NCBI GenBank assembly: GCA_025454635.1
Contig: JALOOB010000012.1
Location: forward strand, 1-39,131
Origin: Anaerolineae bacterium
GTDB lineage: Bacteria > Chloroflexota > Anaerolineae > CG2-30-64-16
Direction: 5' to 3'
DNA length: 39,131 nt
The notes under the pieces were generated by a model. That model had not been told where the DNA came from. It did no database searches and was given only the letters and a program-made list of their open reading frames with translations. Position 1 is the stretch's first letter, and every line of letters begins with the position of its first letter. This document shows, in pieces, positions 20,285 through 38,465 of the stretch. A program made the position numbers and the translations under genes.

Positions 20285-21559
20285 CTACCGGCGAGCCTCC
20301 CACCGGCACGGAATGAAGATCACGCCATCCTGACGTTCCTCGTCTCCGGGCACGACCGTGAAAGTCGCCATTTTGTCCCAGTGATCGTAGGGGTGAGTGA
20401 CAAGGTGATCGTAGATGGCAACGGTGAGATCGTAGCGTCCGTTCAGCAGGGGCAGCGCGTCGACCACGTAGTCCACGACGCCGCGCCCCTGCGCGACCTG
20501 CGGCCCGCCATTGCTCCACACAGTGTTCGGCCCGTTCAGCCGGTTGCCCAACTCGTCATAAATCGACACGCCGAACGCGGGCGACTCGATGCGGCGATGC
20601 GCGTTGTACCAAATTCGGACGACAAAGGGCGCCCCCGTGCGAAACACGGTTGCGGGCTCCCCATCCGGCCCGATGATTCGCGCGCGCTCGATCCGGATTT
20701 CGCCAGAACCCCAGCGCGCGCCCTGTTGCCGCCCGCTGTCCGACGCCTCGAGCTGCGTCGCGCCGTCTCCGGCTTCTTCCGCGAACTCCGCGCCGTCCGG
20801 CCGCGCGCGCTGCGCCTGCTCGTTCCACAGGCCCGACAGGTATTGCCCCGCGACCGCATCCGTCTTGCCGTCCGCGCAGACGCGCCCGTCGTCCAACCAG
20901 ATCGACCGCCGGCACAACTTCTTCACCGATGTCAGGTCGTGCGAGACAAGCATAATCGTCGCGCCCTGCCGCTGAATCTCCAGGATTCGGCGCATACAGC
21001 GATCCTGGAATGCCTGATCGCCGACCGCCAGCACCTCGTCGATGAGCAGAATCTCGGGCTGGAACGCCGTCGCGACCGCAAAGCCGAGCCGCATCAGCAT
21101 GCCCGAGGAGTAGTTGCGGATCGGCACATCGATGAAGCGTTCCAGTTCCGAGAAACTGATAATCTCGTCCACCTGGCTGCGCACCTGCTGGCGGCGCAGG
21201 CCGAGGATCGAGCCGGTCAGGTCGATGTTCTCGCGGCCGGTCAGATCGGGATGAAACCCCGCGCCCAACTCCAGCAGCGCGGCGACGCGCCCGCGCGTCG
21301 TGACTGCGCCCGCGGAGGGATAGATGATGCGCGAGATCAGCTTGAGAATCGTGCTCTTGCCCGAGCCGTTGGACCCGATGATGCCGACCGCGTCGCCCTT
21401 CTCGATCTTGAACGACACATCGCGCAGCGCCCAGAACACCTCCGGCTCGCCGCTCCCGTTGCGCGAGCGTCCCAGCGCGCGCACCAGCTTCTCCTGAAAA
21501 GAGCGCGCGCGGTCCTCGTCAATAATGAACTGTTTGGAAACTCCGTTGAATTCGATCAT
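20285..21559 (-). CDS. wzt: Wzt-type ABC transporter ATPase with C-terminal glycan-binding domain
   Basis: A 424-residue ATPase of the polysaccharide-export type, working with Wzm (24667-25524) to move a lipid-linked glycan across the membrane. Walker A is GSNGSGKST (62-70), the Glu-rich loop RENIDLTGSILGL precedes signature YSSGM (150-154), Walker B is ILLIDEVLAVGD (170-181) and the H-loop is VSHDLT (H207). A polar linker (245-285) leads to a beta-sandwich at 286-424 with FGVSIYDELGNRLNG and LLNGRYDLTVAIYDH, the Wzt_C fold. In E. coli O8/O9a this domain binds the finished glycan end, giving length and substrate selection. ATG 21559 is chosen since the family starts there and it overlaps the upstream stop as ATGA. 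Confidence 0.93.
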   Translation of the reverse strand: MIEFNGVSKQFIIDEDRARSFQEKLVRALGRSRNGSGEPEVFWALRDVSFKIEKGDAVGIIGSNGSGKSTILKLISRIIYPSAGAVTTRGRVAALLELGAGFHPDLTGRENIDLTGSILGLRRQQVRSQVDEIISFSELERFIDVPIRNYSSGMLMRLGFAVATAFQPEILLIDEVLAVGDQAFQDRCMRRILEIQRQGATIMLVSHDLTSVKKLCRRSIWLDDGRVCADGKTDAVAGQYLSGLWNEQAQRARPDGAEFAEEAGDGATQLEASDSGRQQGARWGSGEIRIERARIIGPDGEPATVFRTGAPFVVRIWYNAHRRIESPAFGVSIYDELGNRLNGPNTVWSNGGPQVAQGRGVVDYVVDALPLLNGRYDLTVAIYDHLVTHPYDHWDKMATFTVVPGDEERQDGVIFIPCRWEARR

Positions 21560-23103
21560 CGTTTGCGTTCGTATATCGTAACGACCCGTGGCCCTTCGCT
21601 CACGCTCGCTACCGGCGCGAAATCCGCCGCGACGCGCGCTTCGACGGCTGGGACGCGCTCTTGTGGCAATGCGAGCCACGTCGGCGTGTCCCAGACGAGA
21701 AGCCGCGCGCCGGCCAGCGCGCGTTGAATTGCGGGTTCATCCATTGTGTACAACGTAAGATAGCGCCGATCCGCGTAATAGGCAATCACAGGGCCCTGGT
21801 GCGCAACGACCAGCACTTCTCCTGGTTCGGAGAGGCGCGCGGCCTCTTCGCCCGCACGCGCCAGGAGAGCATAATGCGCATCGCCGGCGAGACGGTCGCG
21901 GTACGACGGCGTCAACCCGGCGCTCGTCCCCATCCCGAGCAGCCCCCACGGCCCGCTCAACAGCAGCAGCAGCGCAATCCCGGTCGCTGCCAATCCTCGC
22001 TGCGCAGGGCGATGCTCAGCTGCTTGCCACATGCCGGCCAACGCCACGCCGCTCAAAATCGCCGCGACGGGCGCCAGCGCGATCAGGTGACGCGGCTCGC
22101 GCAGCCGGACCGCGAGGGACAGGCCCAGCGCCAGCGCCAGATATCCCCAGAGCAGCGCCTCGCGGCCGTCCACCCGGCCCCGCCGCCTCACAAGCCACAC
22201 CACCGCGACCGCCAGGCCGATGACCAGTCCGGGGCCGAACAAGTCAGCCCCAAGCTGGCCGAGCCATTCCGGCGTCGAGGTGAACGCGCGCGGATCCGTA
22301 ACCGGCCCACCGGCTGCCGAATGCAGCCAGCGCTCCATCGCCGCGCGGAACTGTGTCGGCCAGAGCGCACTCGCCCAGACGCCCCAGGCGAGGAGCGCGA
22401 GCAGCGGGGGCGCCGCGACCGCCATCGCGGCCGCGGCGCGCGAGCGTATCGCTTTGCCCCCGGTCAGCGCGGCAAAGACCGCTGCAGGAACGACGGCCAC
22501 GAGCGCGAACTCCTTGAACAGGGTGGCCGCGGCCAGCGCGATCCCTGCCCCGAGACAATGACCCAGCGTGAGCGGGCGGCGCCGGACGAGGAGATAAAAC
22601 GCGGCCAGGATCCCCGCGGCCATGAACGTCTCCATCCGGACGAAGTACGCATACACGGCCAGGAACGCGTTCAGCGCCACAAACGCGGCCGCGAGGAGGC
22701 CGGCCCGCCGGCCCGCAAGCGCAGCGGCGATGGCGTAGGAAAGCAACACGCACAGCAGGCCGGCCAGCGCCGTCACCCCGCGCGCAAGGAACAGACCGTC
22801 TCCGGGTTTGGGGGCGTAAAGGCTGAGCAGAAATGCGTAAGCCGGCGTGTGCTCGAGCAGCGGCGCGCCGCCCGTCCCGACGGATCGCAGCGGCAGGCCG
22901 ACCCGCTGGATATTCCGCGCCGCGTCGAGCAGGACCGCTTCGTCGTACTCTGCGATGCGCGTGTTGAGCGCCAGCGGAAGGATCATCAGGAGCGCGAGCC
23001 CGATTATGGCCGGCAATGCCAGACGCCGCGCCCAGACCGCGAACCCGCGCGAATCGGACACAGACGGCGCGTCTAGCGAGTCATTACGGGCAGATAAGTC
23101 CAT
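21556..23103 (-). CDS. GT39/ArnT-like polyprenyl-phosphate-sugar membrane transferase
   Basis: A 515-residue protein with about 11-12 membrane helices. The first outer loop has AEYDEAVLLDAARNIQR (about 51-67), containing the DE pair (D54, E55) that is catalytic in PMT/ArnT-type enzymes. Further family features are HTPAYAFLLSLYAP, VRMETFMAAGILAAFYL (the region equivalent to R-x-E in PMT_2) and REPRHLIALAPVAAIL near the last third. Such enzymes move a sugar from polyprenyl phosphate to a lipid, glycan or protein acceptor outside the cytoplasm. ATG 23103 is chosen: an upstream extension would be low-complexity. It overlaps the end of the preceding gene by 31 bases and abuts wzt with ATGA. The acceptor is unknown. 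Confidence 0.82.
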   Translation of the reverse strand: MDLSARNDSLDAPSVSDSRGFAVWARRLALPAIIGLALLMILPLALNTRIAEYDEAVLLDAARNIQRVGLPLRSVGTGGAPLLEHTPAYAFLLSLYAPKPGDGLFLARGVTALAGLLCVLLSYAIAAALAGRRAGLLAAAFVALNAFLAVYAYFVRMETFMAAGILAAFYLLVRRRPLTLGHCLGAGIALAAATLFKEFALVAVVPAAVFAALTGGKAIRSRAAAAMAVAAPPLLALLAWGVWASALWPTQFRAAMERWLHSAAGGPVTDPRAFTSTPEWLGQLGADLFGPGLVIGLAVAVVWLVRRRGRVDGREALLWGYLALALGLSLAVRLREPRHLIALAPVAAILSGVALAGMWQAAEHRPAQRGLAATGIALLLLLSGPWGLLGMGTSAGLTPSYRDRLAGDAHYALLARAGEEAARLSEPGEVLVVAHQGPVIAYYADRRYLTLYTMDEPAIQRALAGARLLVWDTPTWLALPQERVPAVEARVAADFAPVASVSEGPRVVTIYERKR

Positions 23104-24659
23104 CCTGAGCCTACAAAAACGCGGCCCTTGAGCACGTTGTCGAGCTCGTTCGACTCCTCCCAGAAGTTCGGCGAGTCCACGACCACCCAGTAATCCCACC
23201 ACCCAGGTGTCCGCCCCGGCCACACGACGCTCGCTGGCACCCCGTTGGCCTCGCACCCGCGCAGCCGGTCGATCAGGATGGACGAACCAATGGGCTGCGT
23301 GAGCGCCGCGTCCGCATAAAAGGTCACGGTCGTCTTGCCGCTGGTTTCATTTGCGCCCACGTTGCGGACTTCGGCGCGTAGAACGACCTTCGACACGCCG
23401 CCGACTGCAGGTAGCGCCGTGCCGGAAGTTGAGGCGGGGAAAAGGTTGATGTAGCGCGCCGCCGCAGCAGCCCGGGTCGAGTAGGCCCCTCCCGGGAGCG
23501 TCAGGGCGGTGCCAGAAGGATTCAGCAAGTTGCTTGCCTGCCCCACACCCGTGTTGGCAATGCTAAACCACAGCCACCGCTGCACGAGGCGGTTGCCGTC
23601 CCGCGCATAGCCCAGATTCGGATCGGCCGCGGTTTCGAGGTAGCTCATGCTGTTGTTGAGGAACGTGCGCACACGCTCGGGCGTGAAGCAATTGCCGTAT
23701 TCGTCCTGCAGGAAGCAACTTCCCGGCGAATCAACCTCGTAGGGGTAGAGGATCGAGTATTCCGACAGCATGAGCGGCTTCTGCTGTTGGCCGCGGTCCT
23801 TCATCCAGGTGCGCATGGCACGGACCTGCTTGGTGAACTCGGTCATATTGTCGTGCTCAGCCCAGCAGTATACGTTCGGGTCGGCGCACTTGTTCTTGTC
23901 GTTGCCGCTCTCGCGGATGCCCAGCGCCGGATCAGTGCCCACCGCCACGCCTGCGATCCCGTTCGGCTTCCCGGCCGGGTCCACCTCGGGCAAGACGTAC
24001 AGGTGCATGTTCCACACGTCGACGGGCCAGTTGCCGCCGTAGAAGCGCTGATACGCGTCCCACACCTTGTCGAGATATTGCAGCCGTCCCGGAGTCACCT
24101 GCACCAAACCGGCATTGGCGACGCGCGCAGTCGGGTCAATGTTTTTGATGTAGTAGTAGATATCGTGATAGGCGCGCGCGTATACGTCCGGATGCGTGTC
24201 GTCCTGAACGCCCTGCGTGCAGCTCTCCGGGTTAGGCCCCCGATCGGGCTCGTTGCCGACGATCCACAAATGGCCGGGCCGGCTCAACACCGCCGCGCCC
24301 AGCCCCTGAGGCGTAAGCGGCGGATCAGCCTTGTAGCCCGGAAGATATGCGCAGCCCTGTTTGTTCTGCTTGACGCGTACGATCGGCACGAACTCGGGCT
24401 GTCCGCTGCTGTCGCCATTTGGACCAAACGTGACAAACCAGCCCGCGTTCAAATCGTCCATCCACGCAAGTTGCCCCTGGCCCAGGGCAGCGACTCCGTA
24501 CCGGCAGCTCGGACCGAGCTCCTGTGGCGCGGAGAAATCGCCTGCGGAAGCCGGCGCGCCTGCGGCCGATGCGACCTGTGCGCTCGCCGCAAAGGCGATG
24601 ATGGAGGTTGCGACGATGAACGCGAGCAGTGAAGAGCGAGTCAGCTTCGCGATATTCAT
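23073..24659 (-). CDS. Secreted glycoside-hydrolase-like protein (clan GH-A type) with CARDB-like C-terminus
   Basis: A 528-residue exported protein. The signal peptide spans about 1-33 (LLAFIVATSIIAFAASAQ, cleavage near ASA-AG). Residues 50-400 look like a TIM-barrel glycosidase: LWIVGNEPDRG supplies the N-E-P motif (acid/base candidate E137), VDVWNMHLYVLPE follows strand 6, and KPLMLSEYSILYP gives the nucleophile candidate E300. Residues 420-515 form a CARDB-like Ig domain (VVLRAEVRNVGANETSGKTT, then NFWEESNELDNV). The protein ends GWTYLPVMTR, similar to the tail of the propeller protein at 8844. It may trim or remodel the exported glycan, which is inference. ATG 24659 lies seven bases after the wzm stop, and its position inside the exporter operon is unusual. 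Confidence 0.75.
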   Translation of the reverse strand: MNIAKLTRSSLLAFIVATSIIAFAASAQVASAAGAPASAGDFSAPQELGPSCRYGVAALGQGQLAWMDDLNAGWFVTFGPNGDSSGQPEFVPIVRVKQNKQGCAYLPGYKADPPLTPQGLGAAVLSRPGHLWIVGNEPDRGPNPESCTQGVQDDTHPDVYARAYHDIYYYIKNIDPTARVANAGLVQVTPGRLQYLDKVWDAYQRFYGGNWPVDVWNMHLYVLPEVDPAGKPNGIAGVAVGTDPALGIRESGNDKNKCADPNVYCWAEHDNMTEFTKQVRAMRTWMKDRGQQQKPLMLSEYSILYPYEVDSPGSCFLQDEYGNCFTPERVRTFLNNSMSYLETAADPNLGYARDGNRLVQRWLWFSIANTGVGQASNLLNPSGTALTLPGGAYSTRAAAAARYINLFPASTSGTALPAVGGVSKVVLRAEVRNVGANETSGKTTVTFYADAALTQPIGSSILIDRLRGCEANGVPASVVWPGRTPGWWDYWVVVDSPNFWEESNELDNVLKGRVFVGSGWTYLPVMTR

Positions 24660-24666
24660 GTGTGGC

Positions 24667-25524
24667 CTAAACCTTCTCCCCGAAGTCGTAGCTGTGGCGC
24701 ACAAAGTACCAGTAGCCGGCAATCAGGACCGCAATCGCTGTCACGGCCGTCCGCAGGAAGAAATCGAGGTCCGTGCGGTAGCCCCAGTAGAGCAGATCGC
24801 GATACGCAGCAATCAGCGACGCCATGGGATTCAAGATATACATCAGCCGTTGCACGTTGACCGTCACGCCCAGGATCTCGTAGCTGGAAGGCAGGATGGC
24901 TATGGAGTACACAACCGGGGTGAGGAAAAACCATGCCAGCAGGACGACGTCCATGATCATCAGCGTGTCCCGATAGTACACGTTGATGGCGGCCAGAAAG
25001 AATGCGACGCCGAGCGTAAAGCAGGTCTGAATCAGGATGACGACGGGCAGCAGCCAGAGCCACGGGCTGAAATGGCTGTGAAAGAAGATCAGCGCGACGA
25101 ACAGCACGGCCAGCCCAAGCAGGAAATTCACCAGGTTTGCCAGCACCGCGCTCAGCGGCAGCACCTCGCGCGGGAAGTAAACCTTCTTGACCAGGTTCGC
25201 GTTGCCGATCACGCTGTTAATGGATAGCATCAGCGCGCCGGTGAAGAAATTCCACGGCAGCAACCCGCAAAGCAGAAAGATCGGGTAGTTCTCGATCTGG
25301 CTTGGCATGATGATGGTGAAGACCACGGTGAAGACCAGCATCATCGCCAGCGGGTTGAGCAAGCTCCACAGGAAACCAAGCACGCTGCGCTTGTAACGGG
25401 ACTTTAGATCGCGCACGACGAGGTTCAGCACGAGGCTTCGATAGCGAAGCAATTCGCGCAGATGCCAGATCAGCGAAGGAGCTGAACCATCCCGCCGCGG
25501 AGTAGAAACCAGGGGAAACGCCAA
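24667..25524 (-). CDS. wzm: Wzm-type ABC transporter permease for polysaccharide export
   Basis: A 285-residue ABC-2 permease with six helices. Hallmarks of the polysaccharide exporters are RDLKSRYKRSVLGFLWSLLN after the cytoplasmic N-terminus, LCGLLPWNFFTGALMLS, the coupling segment LVKKVYFPREVLPLS (about 110-125), INVYYRDTLMIMDVVLLAWF and LNPMASLIAAYRDLLYWG. It partners with Wzt (20285-21559), although two other genes lie between them. The start is a TTG at 25524 with GAGG close upstream, 11 bases after the preceding GT4 stop. A later internal start would remove the conserved N-terminal helix. Confidence 0.92.
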   Translation of the reverse strand: MAFPLVSTPRRDGSAPSLIWHLRELLRYRSLVLNLVVRDLKSRYKRSVLGFLWSLLNPLAMMLVFTVVFTIIMPSQIENYPIFLLCGLLPWNFFTGALMLSINSVIGNANLVKKVYFPREVLPLSAVLANLVNFLLGLAVLFVALIFFHSHFSPWLWLLPVVILIQTCFTLGVAFFLAAINVYYRDTLMIMDVVLLAWFFLTPVVYSIAILPSSYEILGVTVNVQRLMYILNPMASLIAAYRDLLYWGYRTDLDFFLRTAVTAIAVLIAGYWYFVRHSYDFGEKV

Positions 25525-27009: not shown

Positions 27010-27645
27010 CTAGCCGTTAGCCGGCCTCCGGTTACGGTAGAGCGTCGCGTCGACGGCTGCCGCCATCGCAGTCGCTTCCAAATCGACGCCCAGGAGCTCG
27101 CGCACCTGCGCCACGAAGGTCGTGGGGGCGGCCATCATGGCGTTATAGTCAACTTCTAGCAGGGCAATGTTCGGCTGACTTGCAGCCCACTGCCGCACGC
27201 TCGCCGCGTGCTCTTCCAGCAACGCGCTCATTGCTGCGTCATCGTCCGGCGCGGGCTGACCGCGGCGCTCGAGCATTTTGCGCTGCGAGCGCAGCACCTC
27301 TTCCAGGTGCCGCCGCATGAAGATCACGTCGTATCGGTGCGTCGGCGGCAGGTATGTAAGCAGCGCCGAGATAACCTTCACGCACTTGCCGCGCGCCTCG
27401 TCGAGCCACGCCACGTCGCCCTGCGGCAGCCGCTTCACGCGCTCGAATTCGAAGTACCCCCGCGGGTTATCAACGTCCGCTGCGCGAATCTCGTCCGTTA
27501 GCGGCGCAAGCCCGCCCGCCTCCAGCACGCGCATCATCATCGACGTTCCAGAACGCGGCAGGCCCGAAACCACGGCTATCCGCTCATAGCCCGCGACGGG
27601 TCGAAGAGCGGAAGCTGGACGCGCAGCGCCACTCTGATCAGGCAT
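27010..27645 (-). CDS. Sulfotransferase family protein
   Basis: A 211-residue cytoplasmic enzyme that would transfer sulfate from PAPS to a sugar or other hydroxyl. The 5'-phosphosulfate loop is GLPRSGTSMMMR (28-39), and the 3'-phosphate site is in VIFMRRHLEEVLRSQRKMLE (about 107-126). NPRGYFEFERVKRL is a further family motif. Basic Arg-rich residues end the protein. At 211 residues it is near the short end of the family. It lies 26 bases after the lipoprotein gene and 136 bases before the GT4 at 26873. It suggests that a product of the neighbouring glycan clusters is sulfated, which is inference. GGGGA before ATG 27645 supports the start. Confidence 0.85.
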   Translation of the reverse strand: MPDQSGAARPASALRPVAGYERIAVVSGLPRSGTSMMMRVLEAGGLAPLTDEIRAADVDNPRGYFEFERVKRLPQGDVAWLDEARGKCVKVISALLTYLPPTHRYDVIFMRRHLEEVLRSQRKMLERRGQPAPDDDAAMSALLEEHAASVRQWAASQPNIALLEVDYNAMMAAPTTFVAQVRELLGVDLEATAMAAAVDATLYRNRRPANG

Positions 27646-27671: not shown

Positions 27672-28223
27672 TCAGCGGAGGTCCACTTCGAGGTCGCCGA
27701 AGTCCGTCACCTTGTCCGCCTCGACCTTCCAGATCAGCGGCTGGTTCGCTGAATTGGCCAGGATCGTGTGCTTCGCCTCGGGGTTGCCGACAACCATGAC
27801 GTATTCCCCTGCCTTGATGCTCGCAAAGGTAAAGCGGCCCGCGTTGTCGGTCAGGGTGGAGGGGTCGAAAGCCGCGTCGATCGCGTAGACGCACAGGTCC
27901 CGCTTATCCTCTTCGGCCACATCTGGCGGACAGATGATCGCGCCGAGGCTCAGGCTCTGATTCGTGAGCGGTTCGCTCGTGCTCGCGTTGATCAGGCGCC
28001 CGGTCGCTGATGCCGTTCCGGCATCCGGCGTAACCGGAACAGGCAGCGGGCTCTCCAGGACGCCCGGGGTGTTGGCCGCTGCGGTCGGCAGCGGGGCCTG
28101 GGTCGGCAAAGGACTGACTGGCAGCGTTGGCGCAGGCGGCACGGTCAACCCGGGGTTGCACGCAGCCAGCGCCAGGATCAGAATGCCGAGCAATGCGGCA
28201 AGCGCAAATCGTTGAAGAACCAT
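27672..28223 (-). CDS. Lipoprotein with Pro-rich linker and carboxypeptidase-regulatory-like domain
   Basis: A 183-residue protein with a lipoprotein signal peptide: the hydrophobic stretch ends in the lipobox LALAAC with C22 as the lipid-modified residue. Residues 24-70 are a Pro/Thr-rich linker (PPAPTLPVSPLPTQAPLPTA) that would span the cell wall. Residues 72-183 form a beta-sandwich similar to carboxypeptidase-regulatory or prealbumin-like domains, with GRLINASTSEPLTNQSLSLG, FDPSTLTDNAGRFTFASIKA and GEYVMVVGNPEAKH. Two Cys (ICPPDV and DLCVYA) could form a disulfide. ATG 28223 has AGGA seven bases upstream. It is divergent from the repeat protein at 28450 and probably co-transcribed with the sulfotransferase. 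Function unknown. Confidence 0.82.
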   Translation of the reverse strand: MVLQRFALAALLGILILALAACNPGLTVPPAPTLPVSPLPTQAPLPTAAANTPGVLESPLPVPVTPDAGTASATGRLINASTSEPLTNQSLSLGAIICPPDVAEEDKRDLCVYAIDAAFDPSTLTDNAGRFTFASIKAGEYVMVVGNPEAKHTILANSANQPLIWKVEADKVTDFGDLEVDLR

Positions 28224-28337
28224 CTCACTTCCTGTATGCGCAGCCCTCAGGCGCTCGCGCGGCCGCAGCGATGCGGCTTTGCCTTGCCTGAAGGGCGAAT
28301 AATCCCGCTCGGGGGCGACAATACTACCATCGGAGTA

Positions 28338-28367
28338 TTGCCTTTCGGTTCTGCCGGATGTTACACT
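28338..28367 (+). promoter_or_regulatory. Candidate sigma-70-like promoter for the repeat surface protein
   Basis: TTGCCT (28338-28343) and TACACT (28362-28367), 18 bases apart, each match four of six consensus bases. They would give a 5' leader of about 75 bases before ATG 28450. Sequence alone is weak evidence. Confidence 0.35.
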
Positions 28368-28379
28368 GCAACGGCAAAT

Positions 28380-28407
28380 AGATCAAGTCAGGCGTTTCGA
28401 TTGATCT
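28380..28407. promoter_or_regulatory. Inverted repeat in the leader of the repeat surface protein
   Basis: AGATCAA (28380-28386) and TTGATCT (28401-28407) are perfect inverted copies separated by 14 bases. The pair lies between the promoter candidate and the ribosome site at 28437-28442. It may be an operator or a leader hairpin. Confidence 0.4.
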
Positions 28408-28449
28408 TGCGCGAAATAACACTCGCTGTTCTCTTGAAAGGAGAAAATT

Positions 28450-29895
28450 ATGCGGCGACATCAGATGGTACTTTTGCTGAGCGTGGTCCTTCTCCTGGCC
28501 TCGGTTGGCATGGTTTCTGCGGAGACCGGCTACGAGACCAAGTTCGCCTCGGCAATCACCTACCAAAATGTCAGCAATGCGCCGGCGCATGTGGTCTTTA
28601 GCTTCTATAATGAGAAGAGCGCAAGCGCCCACACCGTCGAGCGCGACCTGGCGGCCAACGCTGGTTCGTCCCTCGCCCTCGGCAGCCTCTCCGGCGCCGA
28701 GGCCCTTCCCGCCGGCTTCATGGGTTCGGCCGTGCTGAGCTCCGATCAGTCGATCGTCGCGACGCTGGTGCAGATCCCGCAGCCGACCACGAGCACGGTG
28801 AGGAACCGCCCGCTGTCCAATGGCTTCTCGGCAGGCGCTCCCCAGGTGCTGCTGGCCTCCGTCCTGAAGAATCAGTTCAATACCAGCAGCAAGTTCTCGA
28901 TCCAGAATGCGTCGGACGGTGCGGTTGATATCACCGTGAAGTTCTTCCGCGTCGGCGAGCTCGCTGCGGCCCACACCATGACCGAGACCAACGTCCCGGC
29001 TGGCGCGGCTAAGTATTACGATGCGGGCGCGATCACTGAACTCGGCCCCGCCTTCGACGGTTCGGCCGTTGCCTCGGCAGTCGCCACCGGCACGGCCAAT
29101 GCCGCGAACATCGTGGGCACTGTCCTTGAGCTGCAGACGAACAACGTCGGCGTGCGCGCCTTCGAGGGCATTCCGAGCTCGGCTGCGGGCAACACCGTCT
29201 ACATGGCGACTGCGCTCTGCCAGGCCTTCGGCACCACCTCCGCCTACGCCGTGCAGAACACCAGCAGCGCGGATGCGGCGAACGTGACCGTGACCTACTC
29301 GAACGGCGCAACCGAGACCGCCAGCATCGCGGCCGGTGGCAAGCGGAGCTTCAGCGGCTGCACGACCGGCGTGCCGGCCGGCTTCTCCGGCGCGGCCACG
29401 ATCACGAGCACGGGCGCCCCGATCGTTGTGATCGGCAAGGTCGGTGGCTCGGGCCGCTACACCGCGTTCCTCGGCGAGACGAGCGGCGCTGCCAAGCTGG
29501 CCCTGCCGTACGTTCGCTGGAGCGAGACCAAGTTCTCGACCGGCCAGTACCAGCGCGGCGCCATCGCCATCCAGAACATCGGCGGCGCGGCTGTGAATGG
29601 CGTGAGTGTTCGGTACCTGAACAAGAACGGCCAGGTTGTCGGCACGCACACCATCGCCTCGATCCCGGCCGGCGAAAAGTCCAACTCGAATGCGATGATG
29701 GCCACTGCGACGAACCCGGGCACGCAGGAACTGAGCGAGTTCGGCAATCCTGAGGCGAATCCGGGCGGCGGCTTCGGCGGCTCCGTGATCGTCGAAGGGC
29801 CGTCTGGCAGCCAGCTGGTTGCGATCGTCCGCATCTCCTCGCAGACCGCTGCGGGCATCGTGGCCGAGGACTACAACGGCACGCCCGTTCAATAA
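28450..29895 (+). CDS. Secreted four-repeat Ig-like protein, candidate S-layer or major surface protein
   Basis: A 481-residue exported protein. The signal peptide is about 1-24 (LLLSVVLLLASVGMVSA, cleavage before ETGY). The mature part is four repeats of about 90-110 residues, each carrying a Q-N strand signature: ITYQNVSN, FSIQNASDG, YAVQNTSSA and IAIQNIGGA. Three repeats then have PAGF.GSA-like or FGGSV-like turns (ALPAGFMGSAVLSSD, VPAGFSGAATITS, GGGFGGSVIVEG). It is rich in Ala/Ser/Thr/Gly, with few charges and a single Cys pair. There is no C-terminal anchor. A consensus AAAGGAG site at seven bases, its own promoter candidate and its own strong terminator suggest a highly expressed single-gene transcript. 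An S-layer-like or glycan-carrying role is inference; the family is not one I can name. Confidence 0.82.
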   Translation: MRRHQMVLLLSVVLLLASVGMVSAETGYETKFASAITYQNVSNAPAHVVFSFYNEKSASAHTVERDLAANAGSSLALGSLSGAEALPAGFMGSAVLSSDQSIVATLVQIPQPTTSTVRNRPLSNGFSAGAPQVLLASVLKNQFNTSSKFSIQNASDGAVDITVKFFRVGELAAAHTMTETNVPAGAAKYYDAGAITELGPAFDGSAVASAVATGTANAANIVGTVLELQTNNVGVRAFEGIPSSAAGNTVYMATALCQAFGTTSAYAVQNTSSADAANVTVTYSNGATETASIAAGGKRSFSGCTTGVPAGFSGAATITSTGAPIVVIGKVGGSGRYTAFLGETSGAAKLALPYVRWSETKFSTGQYQRGAIAIQNIGGAAVNGVSVRYLNKNGQVVGTHTIASIPAGEKSNSNAMMATATNPGTQELSEFGNPEANPGGGFGGSVIVEGPSGSQLVAIVRISSQTAAGIVAEDYNGTPVQ

Positions 29896-29953
29896 GTTCG
29901 CGACGCGGCCCTGACGCTCTTGCAGCGGAGAGACCGCCCTCGCTAATCCAAGA

Positions 29954-29977
29954 CCTGCCGGCCAGATGGCTGGCAGG
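29954..29977. other. Hairpin after the repeat surface protein gene
   Basis: CCTGCCGGCC pairs with GGCTGGCAGG (one G-U pair) over a 4-base loop. No T-tract follows, so it may stabilise the mRNA 3' end ahead of the true terminator at 29986. Confidence 0.5.
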
Positions 29978-29985
29978 CCTTGACC

Positions 29986-30038
29986 GAGACCTCACGCAAG
30001 CGCTCGCCCTAATGAGTGTTGCGTGGGGTCTCTTGTTT
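29986..30038 (+). terminator. Strong rho-independent terminator
   Basis: GAGACCTCACGCAA (29986-29999) pairs over 14 bases, with one T-G pair, with TTGCGTGGGGTCTC (30019-30032). The loop is 19 bases, and TTGTTT follows. It ends 21 bases before the methyltransferase ATG, so the leader of that gene must be short or the gene depends on read-through. Confidence 0.82.
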
Positions 30039-30058: not shown

Positions 30059-30778
30059 ATGCCTGATAACCTTCTGACCCGGGCGCTGACCAGCGCTCGC
30101 CTCGGGCTAAGCGATCCGGCCATGCGCGCGTTGATTCGCGACGTGCGCCGGCGGAAACTAACCTACCTGAGCAGCCAGGCGCTGACCGATCTCTACGACG
30201 CGGTCCGGCAACTGGAAGCGCGCCAGGCCGCGGGCGTCATCATCGAGGCGGGAGTAGCCCTTGGGGGCTCCGCGATCATCCTTGCGCGTTCTAAGGCGCG
30301 GGAGCGGTCGCTGGAGCTCTATGACGTTTTCGGCATGATCCCGCCGCCGTCCGCGAGCGATGGGCCGGATGCGCATGCGCGCTACGCTGAGATCGCGAGC
30401 GGCAAATCGGCCGGCATCCAGGGCGACCACTACTACGGCTACGAGGACGGCCTGCTGACGAAGGTGCAGCGGAACCTCGAGTTCTTCGGCGTCGAGCTGG
30501 CGCAGGAGCGTGTGCGCTTGTATCCGGGGCTGTTCGAGGACACGCTGCGCGTCGACGAGCCCGTCGCGCTGGCGCACATCGACTGCGACTGGTATGAGTC
30601 CGTCATGCTATGCCTGGAGAGGATCACGCCGCACCTTGTCGTGGGCGGGATGTTGGTGATCGACGACTACCGGGACTGGTCCGGGTGCAAACGCGCGGTG
30701 GACGAGTTCTTTGCGGGCCGCGAGGATGAGTTCCGGTGGACGCAGCGCGCGCGGCTGCGCATCGAGCGGACCAGGTGA
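30059..30778 (+). CDS. TylF/MycF-type SAM-dependent O-methyltransferase
   Basis: A 239-residue cytosolic enzyme of the TylF (macrocin O-methyltransferase) family, which methylates a sugar hydroxyl using SAM and a metal. RRKLTYLSSQALTDLYDAVR (30-49) precedes the SAM site GVIIEAGVALGGSAI (59-73). ALAHIDCDWYESV (about 171-183) and VIDDYRDWSGCKRAVDEFF (about 200-218) give the metal-binding Asp residues (D175 or D177, D202, D203). ATG 30059 is chosen over TTG 30050. No clear ribosome site is seen, and the strong terminator just upstream leaves only about 20 bases of leader, so the transcript may be nearly leaderless. It is convergent with the flippase gene (12 bases apart). It probably caps or decorates a glycan made by the neighbouring clusters. 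Confidence 0.87.
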   Translation: MPDNLLTRALTSARLGLSDPAMRALIRDVRRRKLTYLSSQALTDLYDAVRQLEARQAAGVIIEAGVALGGSAIILARSKARERSLELYDVFGMIPPPSASDGPDAHARYAEIASGKSAGIQGDHYYGYEDGLLTKVQRNLEFFGVELAQERVRLYPGLFEDTLRVDEPVALAHIDCDWYESVMLCLERITPHLVVGGMLVIDDYRDWSGCKRAVDEFFAGREDEFRWTQRARLRIERTR

Positions 30779-30790
30779 ATGCCGCGCGAC

Positions 30791-32056
30791 TTACGGCGCG
30801 GGCCGGCGCAGCAGCCACGGACGGGCCGCGCCGAGCGCCAGCCAGTAACCGACCAGAATAACAGCCTCAGTAAAGACGTAGACCCAGGCGACCCCCCGCA
30901 CGCCAAACGCATTAACGATGGCCAGATTGACGAAGACGCTCAGCGCGGCGGCGACACCCTGCACGTACAAGCGGCGAGTCTGCCGGCCCGTCGCGACGAC
31001 CGCGGCAGCCAACGCAAACGTAACGCAGCGCAAGCCCAGCACCAGCGAGAGAATGGCAAGCAAGGGCCCGCTGGCCACGTACTGCGCCCCGTAGAGCCGC
31101 GCCACAACCCAGCTTGCGGAAAGGGCCAGGGCTCCGGCGAGAACCGCGCCCATTACCGTGTTCGCCACCACGAAAAGGCGCAATGTCTGGGCGAACGAGC
31201 GATCGTCGGCCGCGTAGGCGCGCGTGAACACGGGGACCATCACCGAGTACGCGGCTAGCGGCACGAGAAAGAGGGTCGTGGTGATCGTCGACGCAGGGCC
31301 GTAGATGCCTGCCTGCTCAGCGCCGAGAAACTGCGCGACGATGGTCACGTCGACACGCTCGTAGATGAGGGCGAGCATCAGCGAGACGGCAAACGGGGCG
31401 GCCGCCCGCAACATGGGCGCCATCGCAGTCCGCTCAAAGCCAAGCCCGAAGTTGCGGCGAAGTAGGGCGATGCCGACAAGGCAGCCCAGCGCCGAGACGG
31501 CCAGCCGCCCCCACAGAAAGGGCAGCAGATACTGCGCGCCCGCATAGATCAGCGCGAGCGTGACCAGCACGAGCCCGAGTTGGATGGGCGCAATGAGCTT
31601 GAGCGTCACGTCGTTGCGCAGGGTGCTCTTGAAGACACTCCACGCCGTGTTCGTCATGTCATCGGTCCACACAAACAGGGCGGTCGTCATGAGGACGACG
31701 GGCGGGAAGACCTCGGGGTTCAACACGCGCGACGCGAGATACAGCCCGCCCAGCCACAGGAATCCAAGGCTGAGCTTCCAGGTCAGCGTATTGCCGCTCT
31801 GCACCGCAAGTTCGCTCTTCGACGCGTTGCTGCCCCGCCAGAGAATCCAGCTGTCCAGGCCCCAGGAGAAGGCCACCGACGTGAGCCGCGCCAGCGAGAA
31901 GCAGGCGAGGTACTGGCCGTAGGCGCTGGGACCAACCTGGCGCGCGAGCAGGATCAGCGCCACGGCGGTCATCAACCGGGCGAAGCCCATGCCGGAGACC
32001 AGCGCAGCGAAGTTGGCGAGGATTTGCTTGCGACTGGGCAACGCGCCGAGCGCCAT
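30791..32056 (-). CDS. Wzx-like oligosaccharide flippase (MOP superfamily)
   Basis: A 421-residue protein with about 12-14 membrane helices of the polysaccharide_synt/MATE-like fold. It would flip undecaprenyl-linked oligosaccharide to the outer face. Family features are ANFAALVSGMGFARLMTAVA at the N-terminus, LARQVGPSAYGQYLACFSLA in loop 1 and LIYERVDVTIVAQFLGAEQA (about 228-247), then YGPASTITTTLFLVPLAAYS. ATG 32056 lies one base after the stop of the sulfatase-like gene. An upstream extension would be a low-complexity antisense stretch. It is the last gene of the right-hand cluster. No Wzy polymerase is visible in this part of the cluster. Confidence 0.87.
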   Translation of the reverse strand: MALGALPSRKQILANFAALVSGMGFARLMTAVALILLARQVGPSAYGQYLACFSLARLTSVAFSWGLDSWILWRGSNASKSELAVQSGNTLTWKLSLGFLWLGGLYLASRVLNPEVFPPVVLMTTALFVWTDDMTNTAWSVFKSTLRNDVTLKLIAPIQLGLVLVTLALIYAGAQYLLPFLWGRLAVSALGCLVGIALLRRNFGLGFERTAMAPMLRAAAPFAVSLMLALIYERVDVTIVAQFLGAEQAGIYGPASTITTTLFLVPLAAYSVMVPVFTRAYAADDRSFAQTLRLFVVANTVMGAVLAGALALSASWVVARLYGAQYVASGPLLAILSLVLGLRCVTFALAAAVVATGRQTRRLYVQGVAAALSVFVNLAIVNAFGVRGVAWVYVFTEAVILVGYWLALGAARPWLLRRPAP

Positions 32057-32057
32057 G

Positions 32058-33527
32058 TTAGTCCAGGTATCCGAGCGCGCGCAGGCGGGCGGCAACTTCC
32101 GGCGCGACTTCCGGCCGGGCAGCAGGCGCGCTTCCCTCAGTCGACGCCAGCCCAACCTCCGCCCGCCACTGCGCGAGCAGGCCCTGCATCCGCGCCAGTA
32201 GCTCCGGCGCATCGCCGACGCGGTTCACGCTCTCGCCTGGATCGCTCGCAAGATCATACAGCTCCACAACCCCGTCGGAACCGATAATGAGTTTGTGTTG
32301 CCCTGTGCGCACCGACTGGAGGCTGCGGAGGAAAGGCGCAAAGTCCTCGGCGCGGAGGCCATAGCGCGTCAGGAGCTCGTGGTGGGGAACGCGCGGGGCG
32401 CCGTACTCGGAGACGATCCAGGACCGCGCAGCGCCCGCATCCAGCAGCGAGCGCGCGCCGGGCGGGAGCGTCGCGCCGGCAGCCGCAAGCGCCGTGCCGT
32501 AGATGTCGTTCGTCTGCGCGAGGCTGCTGACCCGCTTGCCCTTCTCGATCCCCGGCCCGCGCATGACTAGCGGCACGCGGATTAGCGGCTCGTACAGGCC
32601 GTAGAGGTGGTTCAGGAGACTATGCTCGCCGAGACTCTCGCCGTGATCCGCCACCACAATGGTGAGCGTGTCATCGCTGCGACCCGTGTGCTCCAGCCAG
32701 CGCAGCAACTGCCCCATTGCGTCATCCTGATACGCCACCTCCGCGGCATACAGCTGCCCCCAAACGCGCAACTCGTCGTCGGTCAGCCGCTCCACGCCCG
32801 TGACGTGCCGGTAACAGAGGCGCGTCTGGTCGGCGGCGAGCAGTTTCTCAGCCAGTGGCCAATCGTCGACAAAGCGGCGTGCCCACTCCTGCGGCGGCTT
32901 GTACTCCAGGTGCGCTTCGAGATAATGGACCATCGCGAACCAGGGTCCGCTCTGCTTCGCGATCCACTGCTGCGCCGGCTTGAGCGTGCGTCGCGCGCCG
33001 TAGTCCGCATCTCGCAGCGGCTTCAATCTCCGACTCGCGAGATTAACCGCGTTCTTCAAGGGATTGCCGCGAGCGATGCCTTTGGCCGCGCCAAACAGCA
33101 GGTTCTGTTCGGGGTAGGCCTGGGCGAGAGTGACCTGCGTCAGGTCGGTGTCGGTCTGAAGCACCTGCCACAGCTTGTGGAAATCGTCGAAATCCCTGGT
33201 CAGCCCGAAAGACGCGCTCAGCCAGCTATTCTTGCTGATCGCGAAGGTCGCATACCCTTCAGCGCGCAGGGCGGCAGGCAGGCTCGGATAATCCTGGGAC
33301 AGGACCCGCTTCGCCTCGATGTCCATTTGCGAAGGATAGAGGCCCGTCAGGATCGACGCCATCGCGGGCAGGGTCCACGGCGCGCAGGCAAACGCATTCT
33401 CGAACACGCATCCTTCCGCGGCCAGTTCTCCCAATGCGGGTGTAGATGGCTGTGCCGGGTTATAAGGCGAGCAGTAGTCCGCGCGCGTGGCGTCCAGGAT
33501 AATCAGAAGAATGTTCGGCTGCTTCAT
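32058..33527 (-). CDS. Sulfatase-superfamily enzyme with Thr at the catalytic Cys position
   Basis: A 489-residue protein of the sulfatase/alkaline-phosphatase superfamily. Metal-site motifs are present: ILLIILDATRADY (D12, D17), MVHYLEAHLEY (H201, H206) and VVADHGESLGEH (D294, H295). True sulfatases have C-x-P-S-R, whose Cys becomes formylglycine. Counting back from the conserved ILTG gives T-L-P-A-M, so the nucleophile is probably T52 as in LtaS/OpgB-type phosphotransferases; the nearby C48 is four residues too early. Phosphate-ester or phosphotransfer activity is therefore more likely than sulfate hydrolysis. No signal peptide or membrane helix is seen. The C-terminus LRALGYLD is usual for the group. 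It follows the GT4 at 33562 by 34 bases. Confidence 0.82.
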   Translation of the reverse strand: MKQPNILLIILDATRADYCSPYNPAQPSTPALGELAAEGCVFENAFACAPWTLPAMASILTGLYPSQMDIEAKRVLSQDYPSLPAALRAEGYATFAISKNSWLSASFGLTRDFDDFHKLWQVLQTDTDLTQVTLAQAYPEQNLLFGAAKGIARGNPLKNAVNLASRRLKPLRDADYGARRTLKPAQQWIAKQSGPWFAMVHYLEAHLEYKPPQEWARRFVDDWPLAEKLLAADQTRLCYRHVTGVERLTDDELRVWGQLYAAEVAYQDDAMGQLLRWLEHTGRSDDTLTIVVADHGESLGEHSLLNHLYGLYEPLIRVPLVMRGPGIEKGKRVSSLAQTNDIYGTALAAAGATLPPGARSLLDAGAARSWIVSEYGAPRVPHHELLTRYGLRAEDFAPFLRSLQSVRTGQHKLIIGSDGVVELYDLASDPGESVNRVGDAPELLARMQGLLAQWRAEVGLASTEGSAPAARPEVAPEVAARLRALGYLD

Positions 33528-33561: not shown

Positions 33562-34737
33562 TCACGCGTTCCGCATCAGGTTCCGGTACAGGGCTTCATG
33601 TTGCCGCGCAATTGCCGAAATGTCGAATTGCGCCGCGGCGCGCTGCCGCGCGCGGCCGGCCATTTCGGCTGCCGTCTCAGGTCGCGCCATGATCCACAGG
33701 ATAACCTCGGCCAGCGCCGCGGCATCACCAGGCGGCGCCAGCAATCCGGTTTCGCGGTCTTCGACCAGCTCGACCGTGCCGGACACGCGCGTGGCGACCA
33801 CGGGCACGCGCGCCGCCATCGCCTCCAGAATCGCGGTCGGCAGGCCCTCCCAAAGGGAGGAAGACACAAACAGGTCGAACGCGGGAAGCAGCCGCTCCAC
33901 GTCCTGCCGCGCGCCGGTAAACAGCACGCGCTCAGCGATCCCCAGTTCCGCGGCCAGCGCGCGGAGCGCGTCCGCCAGCTCGCCGCTGCCCACAATAACA
34001 AACCACGCATCGGCCCGCTGCGCAAGCACGCGTTCCGCGGCGCGTAGCAGCGCGTCGAGACCCTTCTGCGGCGCAAGCCGGCCCACTGTGCAGGCCACGT
34101 AGGCATCCGGCGGAATCCCGAGCCCACGGCGGACTTCCGCCCGGTCGGTCGCGTCCCGATGGTCAAACCGGCCGAAGTCGAGGGCGTTGTAGGCGAGGAT
34201 GCCGCGCCGCCCGAGCAGGCGCGCCAGCGGCCGGGCGTCCAGGTTGCTGACCACCTTCTGCGACACACCGAGTTCGGCCCGGTAGACGAACGGGTACAGA
34301 CCGTTCGTGAACACGACGCGCCGCCATGGCCGTTTTGCCCATTCGCGCTCGTTGTGCGCGGTCCGCAGGAGCGCGCGTGCGGCCAGCCCGCGTCGGAGCG
34401 TCAGCGCCACCAGATCGCCGAAGTCGCACTGGCTGTGGATAATGTCAACCGGAGCCGGGAGTTGCGCCCTGAGCGCGCGGATCGAGTCGAGGATATTACG
34501 CAGGGGCGCCGAGTCGTCTTTCGGCGCGCCGACGAACGCTGCCAGCCCTTCCCCGCGCAGCCGCGCAAGCCAGTCCGCCTCAAAAGGCGAATCCCACTGC
34601 CACAGCCCGGCCAGGACCGGCTCGACTTGGTCCCGATCCAGCGCGCGCGCGAGGCTGAGGGTGAAACGCTCCGCGCCCCCCACCGGCCCGCCCACCGCAA
34701 AGCCGTTGATAAGATATAGCACGCGCAGCGGTTTCAT
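33562..34737 (-). CDS. Glycosyltransferase family 4
   Basis: A 391-residue GT-B enzyme. The N-terminus has YLINGFAVGGPVGGAERFTL with the GGAERF helix. The segment VDIIHSQCDFGDLVALTL is followed by RTAHNEREWAKRPWRRVVF and LGVSQKVVSNLDARPLARLL. The donor domain starts near 220 with TVGRLAPQKGLDALLRAA, and E-x7-E lies in SLWEGLPTAILEAMAARVP, followed by ELVEDRETGLLAPPGD. It is a clear paralogue of the GT4 at 36047-37249, which shares HNEREWxKRP and SQxxxxNLDxRPLAR. ATG 34737 overlaps the upstream stop by one base as TGATG. The substrate is unknown. Confidence 0.9.
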   Translation of the reverse strand: MKPLRVLYLINGFAVGGPVGGAERFTLSLARALDRDQVEPVLAGLWQWDSPFEADWLARLRGEGLAAFVGAPKDDSAPLRNILDSIRALRAQLPAPVDIIHSQCDFGDLVALTLRRGLAARALLRTAHNEREWAKRPWRRVVFTNGLYPFVYRAELGVSQKVVSNLDARPLARLLGRRGILAYNALDFGRFDHRDATDRAEVRRGLGIPPDAYVACTVGRLAPQKGLDALLRAAERVLAQRADAWFVIVGSGELADALRALAAELGIAERVLFTGARQDVERLLPAFDLFVSSSLWEGLPTAILEAMAARVPVVATRVSGTVELVEDRETGLLAPPGDAAALAEVILWIMARPETAAEMAGRARQRAAAQFDISAIARQHEALYRNLMRNA

Positions 34738-36050
34738 CAACGTCCTCGCGCGCTCGGGCCCGCGCCCAACTGCCCGAAGTCAGCCGCGATAGCCGCGACC
34801 GCCGCACGCGCTTCTTCCTGGAGCGCAGGCAGCCGCGCGTCGATCTCCGCGCGCACCTCTGCGCGGCGCTGCCACAGCGCTTCGAGCCGCGCCGACAGCA
34901 GCCCCGCATCGACCTCCTCGATGTCGATCACCCACTCGCTCAGCCCCAGCATCTTGAAGATGCCGTGCGTCTTGTACTGGTAGGCGATCGCCACGGCGAC
35001 CGTCCCGGCGGTCAGCGCGAAAATGTTGGAGTGGAGCCGCGTGCCGATGAACGCGTCCATCTGCCCATACGCGGCGCGCAACTGCCCGGGCGACCAGACC
35101 GCATCGACAAGAACGACCCGCTCGCTCGCAGCCGTCACAAGCTGCGCTACCCGCGCGGCGGGCCGGCGGTCGTCCTCCGCCTGGCTCGGCCCGGTTACCT
35201 GCGGAAAGAGAAACACCGTGCCCCCATGCCGCGCGAGGAACTCGGACACCGCAGCCGCTACTGCCTGCTCGTAGCCGGCCTGTCTCGCAAACCGGCGGTT
35301 AAGCGCGCCCCAGTCGATGACTGTTGCGCCCACATACGGTCGCGGGAGGTCCTCCCCTCGCGCGAGCGCCTCAAACGGCCGGAGATCGCCCGCGCCGCGA
35401 AACAGAAACGCGATGTCGGGCAGGACGCGGCAGCGTTCGCGCGGGATGCCCAACGAGGCGACGGTCGCCAGTGATGTCTCGTCCCGCACTGAAACGAAGC
35501 GCATTCGCCTGAGCACCCAGCCCAGCGACCAGCGTTCGCGCCGCCGGGTGAGCGGACCGATCGTCTGCGGCATCATGTAGAGCGGCTTGCCCGCCAGCCA
35601 GCCGTGGGCAAGCGCGTAGACGGACAGCAGGAAGGGAATCCCCAGGCCCGACGTGCTGAAGAAGAAGTTGCCCGGACAGCTCACGACGAAATCCGACTCG
35701 CGATACGCAAGCAGCAGCTCGCGGCGCGCCGGGTCCTTCGGCAGCGGCCAGGGACGCCCCAGGTAGCGGCCGGTCAGCGCGACGAGCCAGCTCTGAACCG
35801 CCCACACGGGCAGCCACAGCAGGCGACTTCTCCGCCATCCGCCACCCTTGTCGCCCGCGGCCTTGAACCAACCGGTGAACGAGCCGGCGTACCGCGCGCC
35901 AGGACACGCCTCCGCGCCCCGCGCATCGTTGATCGCAACGGTGATCTCGCTCCCCGGAAAGGTGGCGCGCAGTTCTTCCAGGGTCACTTCCAGCAGGACC
36001 CGGTCGCCCGCGTTCTCCGCCGAGTGGACGTTCGTGACGAGTATCTTCAC
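34737..36050 (-). CDS. Polysaccharide pyruvyl transferase family protein
   Basis: A 437-residue enzyme of the PS_pyruv_trans family (CsaB-like), which adds a pyruvyl ketal from phosphoenolpyruvate to a sugar. The N-terminus KILVTNVHSAENAGDRVLLE carries the N-x-G-D element. The middle has SDFVVSCPGNFFFSTSGLG and YMMPQTIGPLTRRRERW. RFVSVRDETSLATVASLGI precedes the catalytic-type loop DAFIGTRLHSNIFALTAGT (about 332-350, with R338 and H340), then YQYKTHGIFKMLGL. GTG 36050 overlaps the upstream stop as GTGA. It lies between two paralogous GT4 genes. In CsaB systems pyruvylated wall polymers anchor SLH-domain S-layer proteins; no SLH domain is seen in this window. Confidence 0.9.
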   Translation of the reverse strand: MKILVTNVHSAENAGDRVLLEVTLEELRATFPGSEITVAINDARGAEACPGARYAGSFTGWFKAAGDKGGGWRRSRLLWLPVWAVQSWLVALTGRYLGRPWPLPKDPARRELLLAYRESDFVVSCPGNFFFSTSGLGIPFLLSVYALAHGWLAGKPLYMMPQTIGPLTRRRERWSLGWVLRRMRFVSVRDETSLATVASLGIPRERCRVLPDIAFLFRGAGDLRPFEALARGEDLPRPYVGATVIDWGALNRRFARQAGYEQAVAAAVSEFLARHGGTVFLFPQVTGPSQAEDDRRPAARVAQLVTAASERVVLVDAVWSPGQLRAAYGQMDAFIGTRLHSNIFALTAGTVAVAIAYQYKTHGIFKMLGLSEWVIDIEEVDAGLLSARLEALWQRRAEVRAEIDARLPALQEEARAAVAAIAADFGQLGAGPSARGR

Positions 36051-37249
36051 GTCCGAGCCGTCCCTCGCTCGCCCATCAGGCTCTCATAGAAGTCGGCGTA
36101 GCGCGCGGCCACCGAGTCGAGCGAGTAGGAGGCCTGCGCGCGTTCGAGCGCCCGCGCGGCCATCTCGGCTGCGGGCGCTGCGCCGTTCGCCATCCTTAAA
36201 ATGGCCTGGGCCAGCGCCGGGGGATCCTCCGGCGGAACCAGCAGCCCGGAAACGCCATCCTCGATCAACTCGCTGTTCCCCGACACCCGCGTCGCCACGA
36301 CCGGCGCCCCCGACGCGATGGCCTCCAGCACCACGGTCGGCAGCCCTTCATAGCGCGACGGGGAGACAAACAGGTCGAACGTCCGCAGCAGCTCGGCCAC
36401 GTCCGGCCGCGCGCCGGTCAGGGTCAGCGCATCCGCAACTCCCAGCGCCCGCGCCTGTTCGACCAGCGCCTCCCGCTGCGCGCCCGCGCCCACCAGGACG
36501 AAGCGAGCGCGCGGGCACTCCGCCAGGACCGCGGGGATCGCGGCCAGAAGCGTGTCGTACCCCTTCTGCGGAACGAGGCGTCCGACGCTGCCGACGACGA
36601 AGGCATCGGAGGGGAGACCCAAGCTCTCGCGCTTCTGCCTCCGGTCCACCCTGACCTGCGTGAAGCGCTCGAAGTTGAGGGCGTTCGGAATGTACAACGC
36701 GCTTTTTCCGAGCGCGCGCGCAAGCGGCCGCCGGTCGAGGTTGTCCGCGGCGCGCTGCGAGACCGCGAGGTCGGCCCCGAAGAACCAGGGATAGACGAAA
36801 TTGGGGAACAGCTTGCCCCACAGCGGCCGCTTGCCCCATTCGCGCTCGTTGTGAACTGTCCGCACGAGGTGTCGCGCGCCGACCTGCCGCCGCACGGCAA
36901 TGGCCGCAAGATCGCTGAACTCGCCGTGGCTGTGCGCAATATCGACCGTGTCGCGCAGTTCGCGACGCAGGCCGGCCAGCCCCGCCACGCAACTCCGGTA
37001 CGCGCCGCTCTCGTCCCACGGTGCGGCAACCACTGTGGGAATCCCGGCTTCGGTCAGAGCAGCAGCCCGCGGCCCTTCGAACGGCGTGCCGTAATCCCAG
37101 ATCGCTGCGATGCTGGCCTGAACGCGCTGCGGATCAAATGCCTGCGCGAGCTCGGTCACAAAGCGCGCCACGCCGCCCGACACCGATTCCAGCGCGAGGC
37201 CGGAGATCAATTCGAGGACGCGCACGGGACGGGAGCGCACGGGCGTCAT
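36047..37249 (-). CDS. Glycosyltransferase family 4
   Basis: A 400-residue GT-B enzyme. The acceptor domain opens with VRVLELISGLALESVSGGVA, where GGVARF replaces GGAERF, then VDIAHSHGEFSDLAAIAV and RTVHNEREWGKRPLWGKLF. The donor domain starts near 225 with SVGRLVPQKGYDTLLAAI, and E-x7-E lies in PSRYEGLPTVVLEAIASG, followed by ELIEDGVSGLLVPPED. It shares its order of motifs with the GT4 at 33562-34737, so the pair probably arose by duplication around the pyruvyl transferase gene. The ATG overlaps the upstream stop as ATGA, and the end overlaps the next gene as GTGA. Confidence 0.9.
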   Translation of the reverse strand: MTPVRSRPVRVLELISGLALESVSGGVARFVTELAQAFDPQRVQASIAAIWDYGTPFEGPRAAALTEAGIPTVVAAPWDESGAYRSCVAGLAGLRRELRDTVDIAHSHGEFSDLAAIAVRRQVGARHLVRTVHNEREWGKRPLWGKLFPNFVYPWFFGADLAVSQRAADNLDRRPLARALGKSALYIPNALNFERFTQVRVDRRQKRESLGLPSDAFVVGSVGRLVPQKGYDTLLAAIPAVLAECPRARFVLVGAGAQREALVEQARALGVADALTLTGARPDVAELLRTFDLFVSPSRYEGLPTVVLEAIASGAPVVATRVSGNSELIEDGVSGLLVPPEDPPALAQAILRMANGAAPAAEMAARALERAQASYSLDSVAARYADFYESLMGERGTART

Positions 37250-38460: not shown

Positions 38461-38465
38461 GTTGC

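Follow-up and report, generated by a model that had tools for sequence, protein, structure and literature searches.

A secreted protein of four ASRAH-like repeats linked to surface-polysaccharide genes in Chloroflexota

A gene for a secreted protein made of four ASRAH-like domains lies within the stretch of Anaerolineae DNA analyzed here (39,131 nucleotides, hereafter the window). On balance, we take this stand-alone tetrad to be a structural, lectin-like component of the outer polysaccharide coat. The tetrad protein probably helps to form an outer coat of protein and sugar because it is found phylum-wide together with a partner lipoprotein and surface-polysaccharide genes. The libraries searched give it neither a name nor a function, and a stand-alone secreted tetrad is absent from the published description of the ASRAH superfamily (PMC2739507).

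The tetrad gene and its flanking signals

The features of the gene are as follows.

28319-28340: palindrome CAATACT-N8-AGTATTG, a candidate operator overlapping the -35 box
28338-28367, plus strand: promoter candidate TTGCCT-18-TACACT (read directly; 8/12 consensus)
28438-28443, plus strand: Shine-Dalgarno sequence AAGGAG, 6 nt upstream of the ATG (read directly)
28450-29895, plus strand: gene for the secreted 481-residue protein with four tandem ASRAH-like repeats (open reading frame; family profile matches)
28450-28521, plus strand: signal peptide, approximately residues 1-24, MRRHQMVLLLSVVLLLASVGMVSA (hydrophobic segment read by eye)
28522-28839, plus strand: repeat 1, residues 25-130 (alignment; HMM 21-127, E = 9e-21)
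28840-29187, plus strand: repeat 2, residues 131-246 (modelled as an eight-strand β-sandwich, pLDDT 83)
29188-29487, plus strand: repeat 3, residues 247-346 (HMM 251-346, E = 2e-22)
29488-29892, plus strand: repeat 4, residues 347-481 (HMM 351-479, E = 2e-17)
29949-29982, plus strand: first hairpin after the stop codon (z = -3.6)
29986-30038, plus strand: terminator hairpin with T-rich tail (z = -7.0)

Gene coordinates are mechanical ORF calls, and a 522-residue ORF on the minus strand opposite the tetrad gene is set aside as a presumed codon-phase artefact of GC-rich DNA. The consensus ribosome site reported in the preliminary description is present ahead of an ATG start, and AAGGAG is kept in the orthologues L014 and L015. 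The product is a 48 kDa protein with no anchor beyond its signal sequence, the region of which (residues 2-19) is helical in a full-length model. Its repeats are diverged β-sandwiches of about 110 residues; the earlier reading of four such repeats is borne out by pairwise Smith-Waterman comparison (z = 2.3-5.5 against shuffles). The Gln-Asn strand signature is also real, with the Asn conserved in 96% and the Gln in 81% of 168 repeats. A Cys pair (C257/C304) lies within repeat 3, and repeat 4 bears the C-terminal signature of subtype A, EGPxGSQL...EDYNGxP.

The promoter candidate is weak and falls under the scan threshold, but its -10 box lies in sequence kept in the 74%-identical orthologue L014. 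An inverted repeat previously proposed in the leader (28380-28407) shows folding at the level of chance (z = -0.5), is not conserved and was rejected as a regulator. The inverted repeat that is conserved is the palindrome at 28319-28340, which occupies the same place in orthologues L014, L065 and L067. Whole-genome searches allowing one mismatch found it as the sole site in the genome of the window and in G007, and in G172 the single match likewise lies upstream of a tetrad gene; a related site precedes the L067 gene. In the form AATACT-N8-(A/G)GTATTG (e.g., L014 308-329 and G172:C21:115239-115259) it always sits approximately 105-131 nt upstream of the tetrad gene and is single in each genome where found.

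Downstream, the region described earlier as a very strong terminator folds at z = -7.2, a value matched by no shuffle, and contains two hairpins, the second of which (29986-30032) is followed by TTGTTT and ends at 30038. A strict terminator scan did not list the hairpins at 29949-30038. Across the family, 33 of 42 genes are followed by an intrinsic terminator no more than 130 nt after the stop codon, compared with 32 of 504 other ORFs. High expression of the tetrad gene is plausible from its terminators and codon usage, although codon adaptation differs between species: it exceeds that of all 52 background genes in Herpetosiphon, but in C. aurantiacus it reaches only the 73rd percentile, and in another species the 19th. 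Codon usage was rejected as proof of high expression on account of this inconsistency. An Rfam search of the window gave no match.

Repeat identity and the ASRAH superfamily

The family was not recognized in the preliminary description, and searches with the whole protein do little to place it. Pfam and NCBIfam returned only sub-threshold CARDB and FlgD_ig matches, a single-sequence phmmer search of the PDB gave nothing meaningful, phage records gave no match, and a viral structure library yielded no convincing one. Among open-licence papers, none was found that names the protein in Chloroflexus. The identity of the family is nevertheless resolvable, and both fold and profile searches lead to the ASRAH domains.

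The ASRAH superfamily, to which Thermotoga TM1070 and the sensory rhodopsin transducer of Anabaena belong, was described by De Souza, Iyer and Aravind in 2009 (PMC2739507). Its members share an eight-strand sandwich with a nearly invariant Asn after strand 2, and are predicted to bind sugars (PMC2739507). A full-length AlphaFold model of the tetrad protein from three sequences was poor (pLDDT 47), and the repeats of three orthologues were therefore stacked, with repeat 2 modelled alone from the resulting 12 repeats. Structure prediction of a single repeat, as the preliminary description had proposed, gave a confident eight-strand β-sandwich (pLDDT 83). In a Foldseek search of the PDB the top match to this model is TM1070 (1nc7; E = 7e-4, TM score 0.61-0.63), with the Anabaena transducer (2ii7-2iia) lower on the list at high probability. 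A 15-repeat profile searched against 177,635 PDB sequences placed 2ii7, 2iia and 1nc7 at ranks 1-3 (E = 0.0019-0.0025) with the Asn aligned. Alignment with hhalign to Chloroflexota PF07100 proteins scored 25.3, compared with at most 10.3 in 20 column shuffles, and the signature Asn again falls on that of the superfamily. This residue stands at the end of strand 2 in 162 of 168 repeats; in repeat 2, N23 ends strand E15-23.

There are departures from the founding proteins. Any Trp within the first 12 residues, where the superfamily has its strand-1 Trp, is present in only 25 of the 168 repeats, but since this residue is described as well conserved and not invariant (PMC2739507), membership is held with this exception. 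PF07100 (the ASRT family) does not match the window protein, and the ASRT cleft signature SHExxCxxN is absent, N-7 being Thr, Asn or Ser and N-3 being Ala, Thr or Gln. By strand alternation, the conserved Gln (N-1) would point the same way as N-3 and N-7, the cleft residues of TM1070. Taken together, the repeats are very probably divergent ASRAH domains. The resemblance to ASRT/TM1070 covers the fold, the aligned core and the Asn after strand 2, and extends to architecture in that the homotetramer of single domains in those proteins parallels the four linked domains here. ASRT/TM1070 members are, however, cytoplasmic and single-domain, and possess the His/Cys cleft signature that the tetrad protein lacks. 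Sugar binding by the founding proteins is itself a prediction, based on ethanediol in the cleft and gene context.

CARDB (PF07705) was considered as an alternative identity. Repeat 4 has a weak match (E = 0.004) and the C. aurantiacus relative lies just above the cut-off, but the match in the window protein reaches 17.8 of 22.7 bits, under the curated cut-off, and fold and profile searches favour ASRAH; the CARDB assignment was rejected.

Two kinds of secreted ASRAH protein have been described, namely dyads and amidase-fused tetrads of Roseiflexus, Chloroflexus and Herpetosiphon (PMC2739507). The actinobacterial lipoprotein dyads are, like the protein studied here, secreted, predicted to bind sugars and linked to a glycosyltransferase, but they have two domains and their own lipid anchor where the tetrad has four domains and a separate lipoprotein. 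These dyads possibly correspond to DUF5719 (PF18986), which matches family member L004 (5.7e-7) but not the window protein. The amidase-fused tetrads are closer, being secreted, four-repeat proteins of the same phylum. When Amidase-2 genes taken from three genomes were scanned with the repeat HMM, RS-1 and C. aurantiacus each proved to have one amidase protein with four C-terminal repeats; in RS-1, the envelopes at 373-461 and 686-789 correspond in position to ASRAH segments already published (373-471 and 679-789; PMC2739507). These fusions were described as always amidase-linked, whereas the window protein has no match to an amidase domain and carries no enzyme domain; unlike them, it also has its own lipoprotein neighbour and a location in a polysaccharide cluster. 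A further large protein, L012 (G013:C178; open, at least 887 residues), has related β-sandwich repeats before a region judged peptidase-like by eye, and is a possible additional ASRAH-type fusion.

Distribution and gene neighbourhood

A family profile was built from 11 full-length relatives that are collinear end to end and as little as 23% identical to the window protein. At E ≤ 1e-5 it has matches in 190 of 298 genomes from the class and in 112 of 400 from the phylum Chloroflexota, mostly once per genome and mostly at full length; the genome of the window (549 contigs, 77% complete) has one copy. Family ORFs span 430-550 residues and are filled by the repeats. All 42 relatives examined have exactly four; a first-pass count with the repeats of the window protein and two orthologues as query had found four in 39 of these 42 and three in the remainder. 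The named relatives are from Anaerolineae/Ardenticatenaceae MAGs. Relatives also occur in genomes that we take to be those of Chloroflexus aurantiacus J-10-fl, C. aggregans DSM 9485, Herpetosiphon aurantiacus and Roseiflexus RS-1; as expected, a chlorosome protein family is present in both Chloroflexus genomes and absent from those of Herpetosiphon and Roseiflexus RS-1. The tetrad gene is not universal in the class, since almost none of the genomes listed for one Anaerolineae family (f28), a well-assembled one, has it.

The neighbouring genes in the window are as follows.

27672-28223, minus strand: small lipoprotein with lipobox LALAAC and a carboxypeptidase-regulatory/transthyretin-like domain, divergent and upstream of the tetrad gene
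30062-30778, plus strand: TylF-type O-methyltransferase, a recurrent neighbour (PF05711, E = 4e-26)
30791-32212, minus strand: Wzx-type polysaccharide flippase, a conserved neighbour (PF01943, E = 7e-15)
33562-34740, minus strand: GT4 glycosyltransferase (PF00534, E = 9e-42)
34737-36050, minus strand: polysaccharide pyruvyl transferase (PF04230, E = 1e-30)
36047-38469, minus strand: two GT4 glycosyltransferases (PF13692, E = 4e-41; PF00534, E = 3e-41)

The preliminary view of a single-gene unit between minus-strand clusters is incomplete in that it overlooks the plus-strand TylF gene and the linked lipoprotein. A lipoprotein profile made from 11 loci was searched in the 298 genomes, and of the 72 matches better than E = 1e-9, 57 have a four-repeat gene no more than 1.6 kb away (median distance 183 bp), a count in which some of the 57 loci helped to build the profile and most did not. 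The linked lipoprotein gene follows the tetrad gene on the same strand in 45 cases and is divergent and upstream in 11. By gene linkage, the lipoprotein is a dedicated neighbour and putative partner of the tetrad gene.

The Wzx, pyruvyl transferase, GT4 and TylF genes recur beside the tetrad gene in the window, two MAG relatives and Herpetosiphon, and all but TylF do so in C. aurantiacus. TylF was found near the tetrad gene at 6 loci in an initial set of 21 and at 4 in a second set of 20. Among 20 independent loci, GT4 genes are present at 14, compared with none in 20 control regions drawn from these genomes (351 and 247 kb, respectively); approximately 6 of the 20 loci have none of the GT4 glycosyltransferases tested. 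Subtype A forms a clade with 100/100 support that mixes Chloroflexia and Anaerolineae, and 13 of its 14 loci have the Wzx/pyruvyl-transferase cassette compared with 3 of 28 others (Fisher p = 3e-7, a post hoc test that ignores shared ancestry). Three subtypes, accompanied by different cassettes, are found among three Chloroflexus genomes, and many subtype-B loci have no detected pyruvyl transferase.

The wider region contains other genes of interest. A sulfotransferase (27010-27645) and a sulfatase (32058-33527) are encoded on either side of the locus, a hint that the surface polysaccharide may be sulfated besides being pyruvylated and methylated. A pair of ABC exporter genes with a Wzt C-terminal domain (20285-21679 and 24667-25524) gives the region an ABC-type route of glycan export besides Wzx. 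Between the two exporter genes, and adjoining a PMT-like glycosyltransferase gene (21556-23256), is a 549-residue CARDB protein (23073-24722; E = 4e-7). The glycosyltransferase region also encodes a 1009-residue FG-GAP/Ig surface-type protein (8844-11873) and a 726-residue protein with no Pfam match (16483-18663).

A role in the outer coat

What, then, might a secreted protein of four predicted sugar-binding domains do? The preliminary suggestion of a surface structural protein tied to glycan genes stands as regards synteny across two lineages of the phylum, the dedicated lipoprotein and the absence of a catalytic domain, but does not stand as regards an S-layer lattice. It is likely that the tetrad protein works with the polysaccharide of the neighbouring genes; a structural role in the coat specifically is given barely better than an even chance. 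The signal peptide would export the protein, and its four linked β-sandwiches probably mimic the homotetramer of the single-domain relatives. Synteny suggests that it could bind and cross-link the polysaccharide produced by the neighbouring Wzx, glycosyltransferase and pyruvyl-transferase genes, and the tight linkage of the membrane lipoprotein suggests that its transthyretin-like domain may tether or assemble the coat.

The tetrad might instead be a glycoprotein, an acceptor rather than a binder, with the glycan of the cluster attached to its Ser and Thr residues. These make up 20% of the protein compared with 6-14% in its neighbours, the PMT-like glycosyltransferase is encoded in the same region and tetrad subtype tracks the glycan cassette. 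Ser/Thr-rich Ig-like repeats are, however, common without glycans, a PMT-type gene was not among the conserved neighbours found and the ASRAH fold points to binding, such that we consider this unlikely.

SLH proteins of Bacillus and Paenibacillus are anchored through pyruvylated polysaccharide, and the tetrad could by analogy be the subunit of a two-dimensional S-layer anchored via the pyruvylated polymer made next door. A secreted repeat protein beside pyruvyl transferase, flippase and glycosyltransferase genes does recall S-layer/secondary-wall-polymer loci (PMC10435577). Litorilinea has a lattice-like protein layer (PMC13319060), Ca. Viridilinea has a polar S-layer (PMC7332563) and the strong terminators of tetrad genes would also suit such a subunit. 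Cryo-tomography, however, showed C. aggregans and R. castenholzii to have an amorphous external layer of 30-50 nm and no S-layer (PMC7332563), yet C. aggregans encodes a full-length relative (G507) and another is present in a Roseiflexus genome. SLH domains are absent from the tetrad protein and from 11 genomes, with 4 control genomes positive, so any pyruvylated polymer that may be made does not serve as a ligand for SLH domains. The pyruvyl transferase of the window also differs from that of SLH-type systems in missing the CsaB cut-off: it was rejected as a CsaB orthologue at 93 of 213 bits, and the WcaK model is likewise under its cut-off. Many subtype-B loci, moreover, lack a detected pyruvyl transferase, and a 48 kDa protein with four lectin-like domains suits a cross-linker at least equally. 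An S-layer subunit, as first suggested for this gene, is therefore as improbable as a glycan acceptor.

Less likely still is a peptidoglycan-binding tetrad that takes part in remodelling the wall or serves as a scaffold bound to it, with the polysaccharide genes incidental: among described proteins of the phylum, its closest relatives carry a fused N-acetylmuramoyl-L-alanine amidase, but the tetrad protein has no such domain, is tightly linked to polysaccharide export genes and not to wall genes, and switches subtype with the cassette inside one genus.

The outer envelope of Chloroflexota is disputed, and external layers have been seen without assigned proteins (PMC7332563, PMC13319060). As a structural coat component, the tetrad protein could help to form the amorphous layer of C. 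aggregans and R. castenholzii. A more tentative proposal, to which we give somewhat less than an even chance, is that the tetrad and lipoprotein form a two-gene module that serves as the general protein scaffold of the Chloroflexota outer coat, with subtypes exchanged together with the polysaccharide cassette in a serotype-like manner so that protein and glycan are matched pairs. The stand-alone secreted architecture adds to a superfamily for which a sugar-binding role has only been predicted since 2009. The family is a specific, mostly single-copy candidate for the external layer, present in cultured Chloroflexus, Herpetosiphon and Roseiflexus, and the composition of this layer becomes directly testable because a candidate protein, its partner and a polysaccharide locus are now given.
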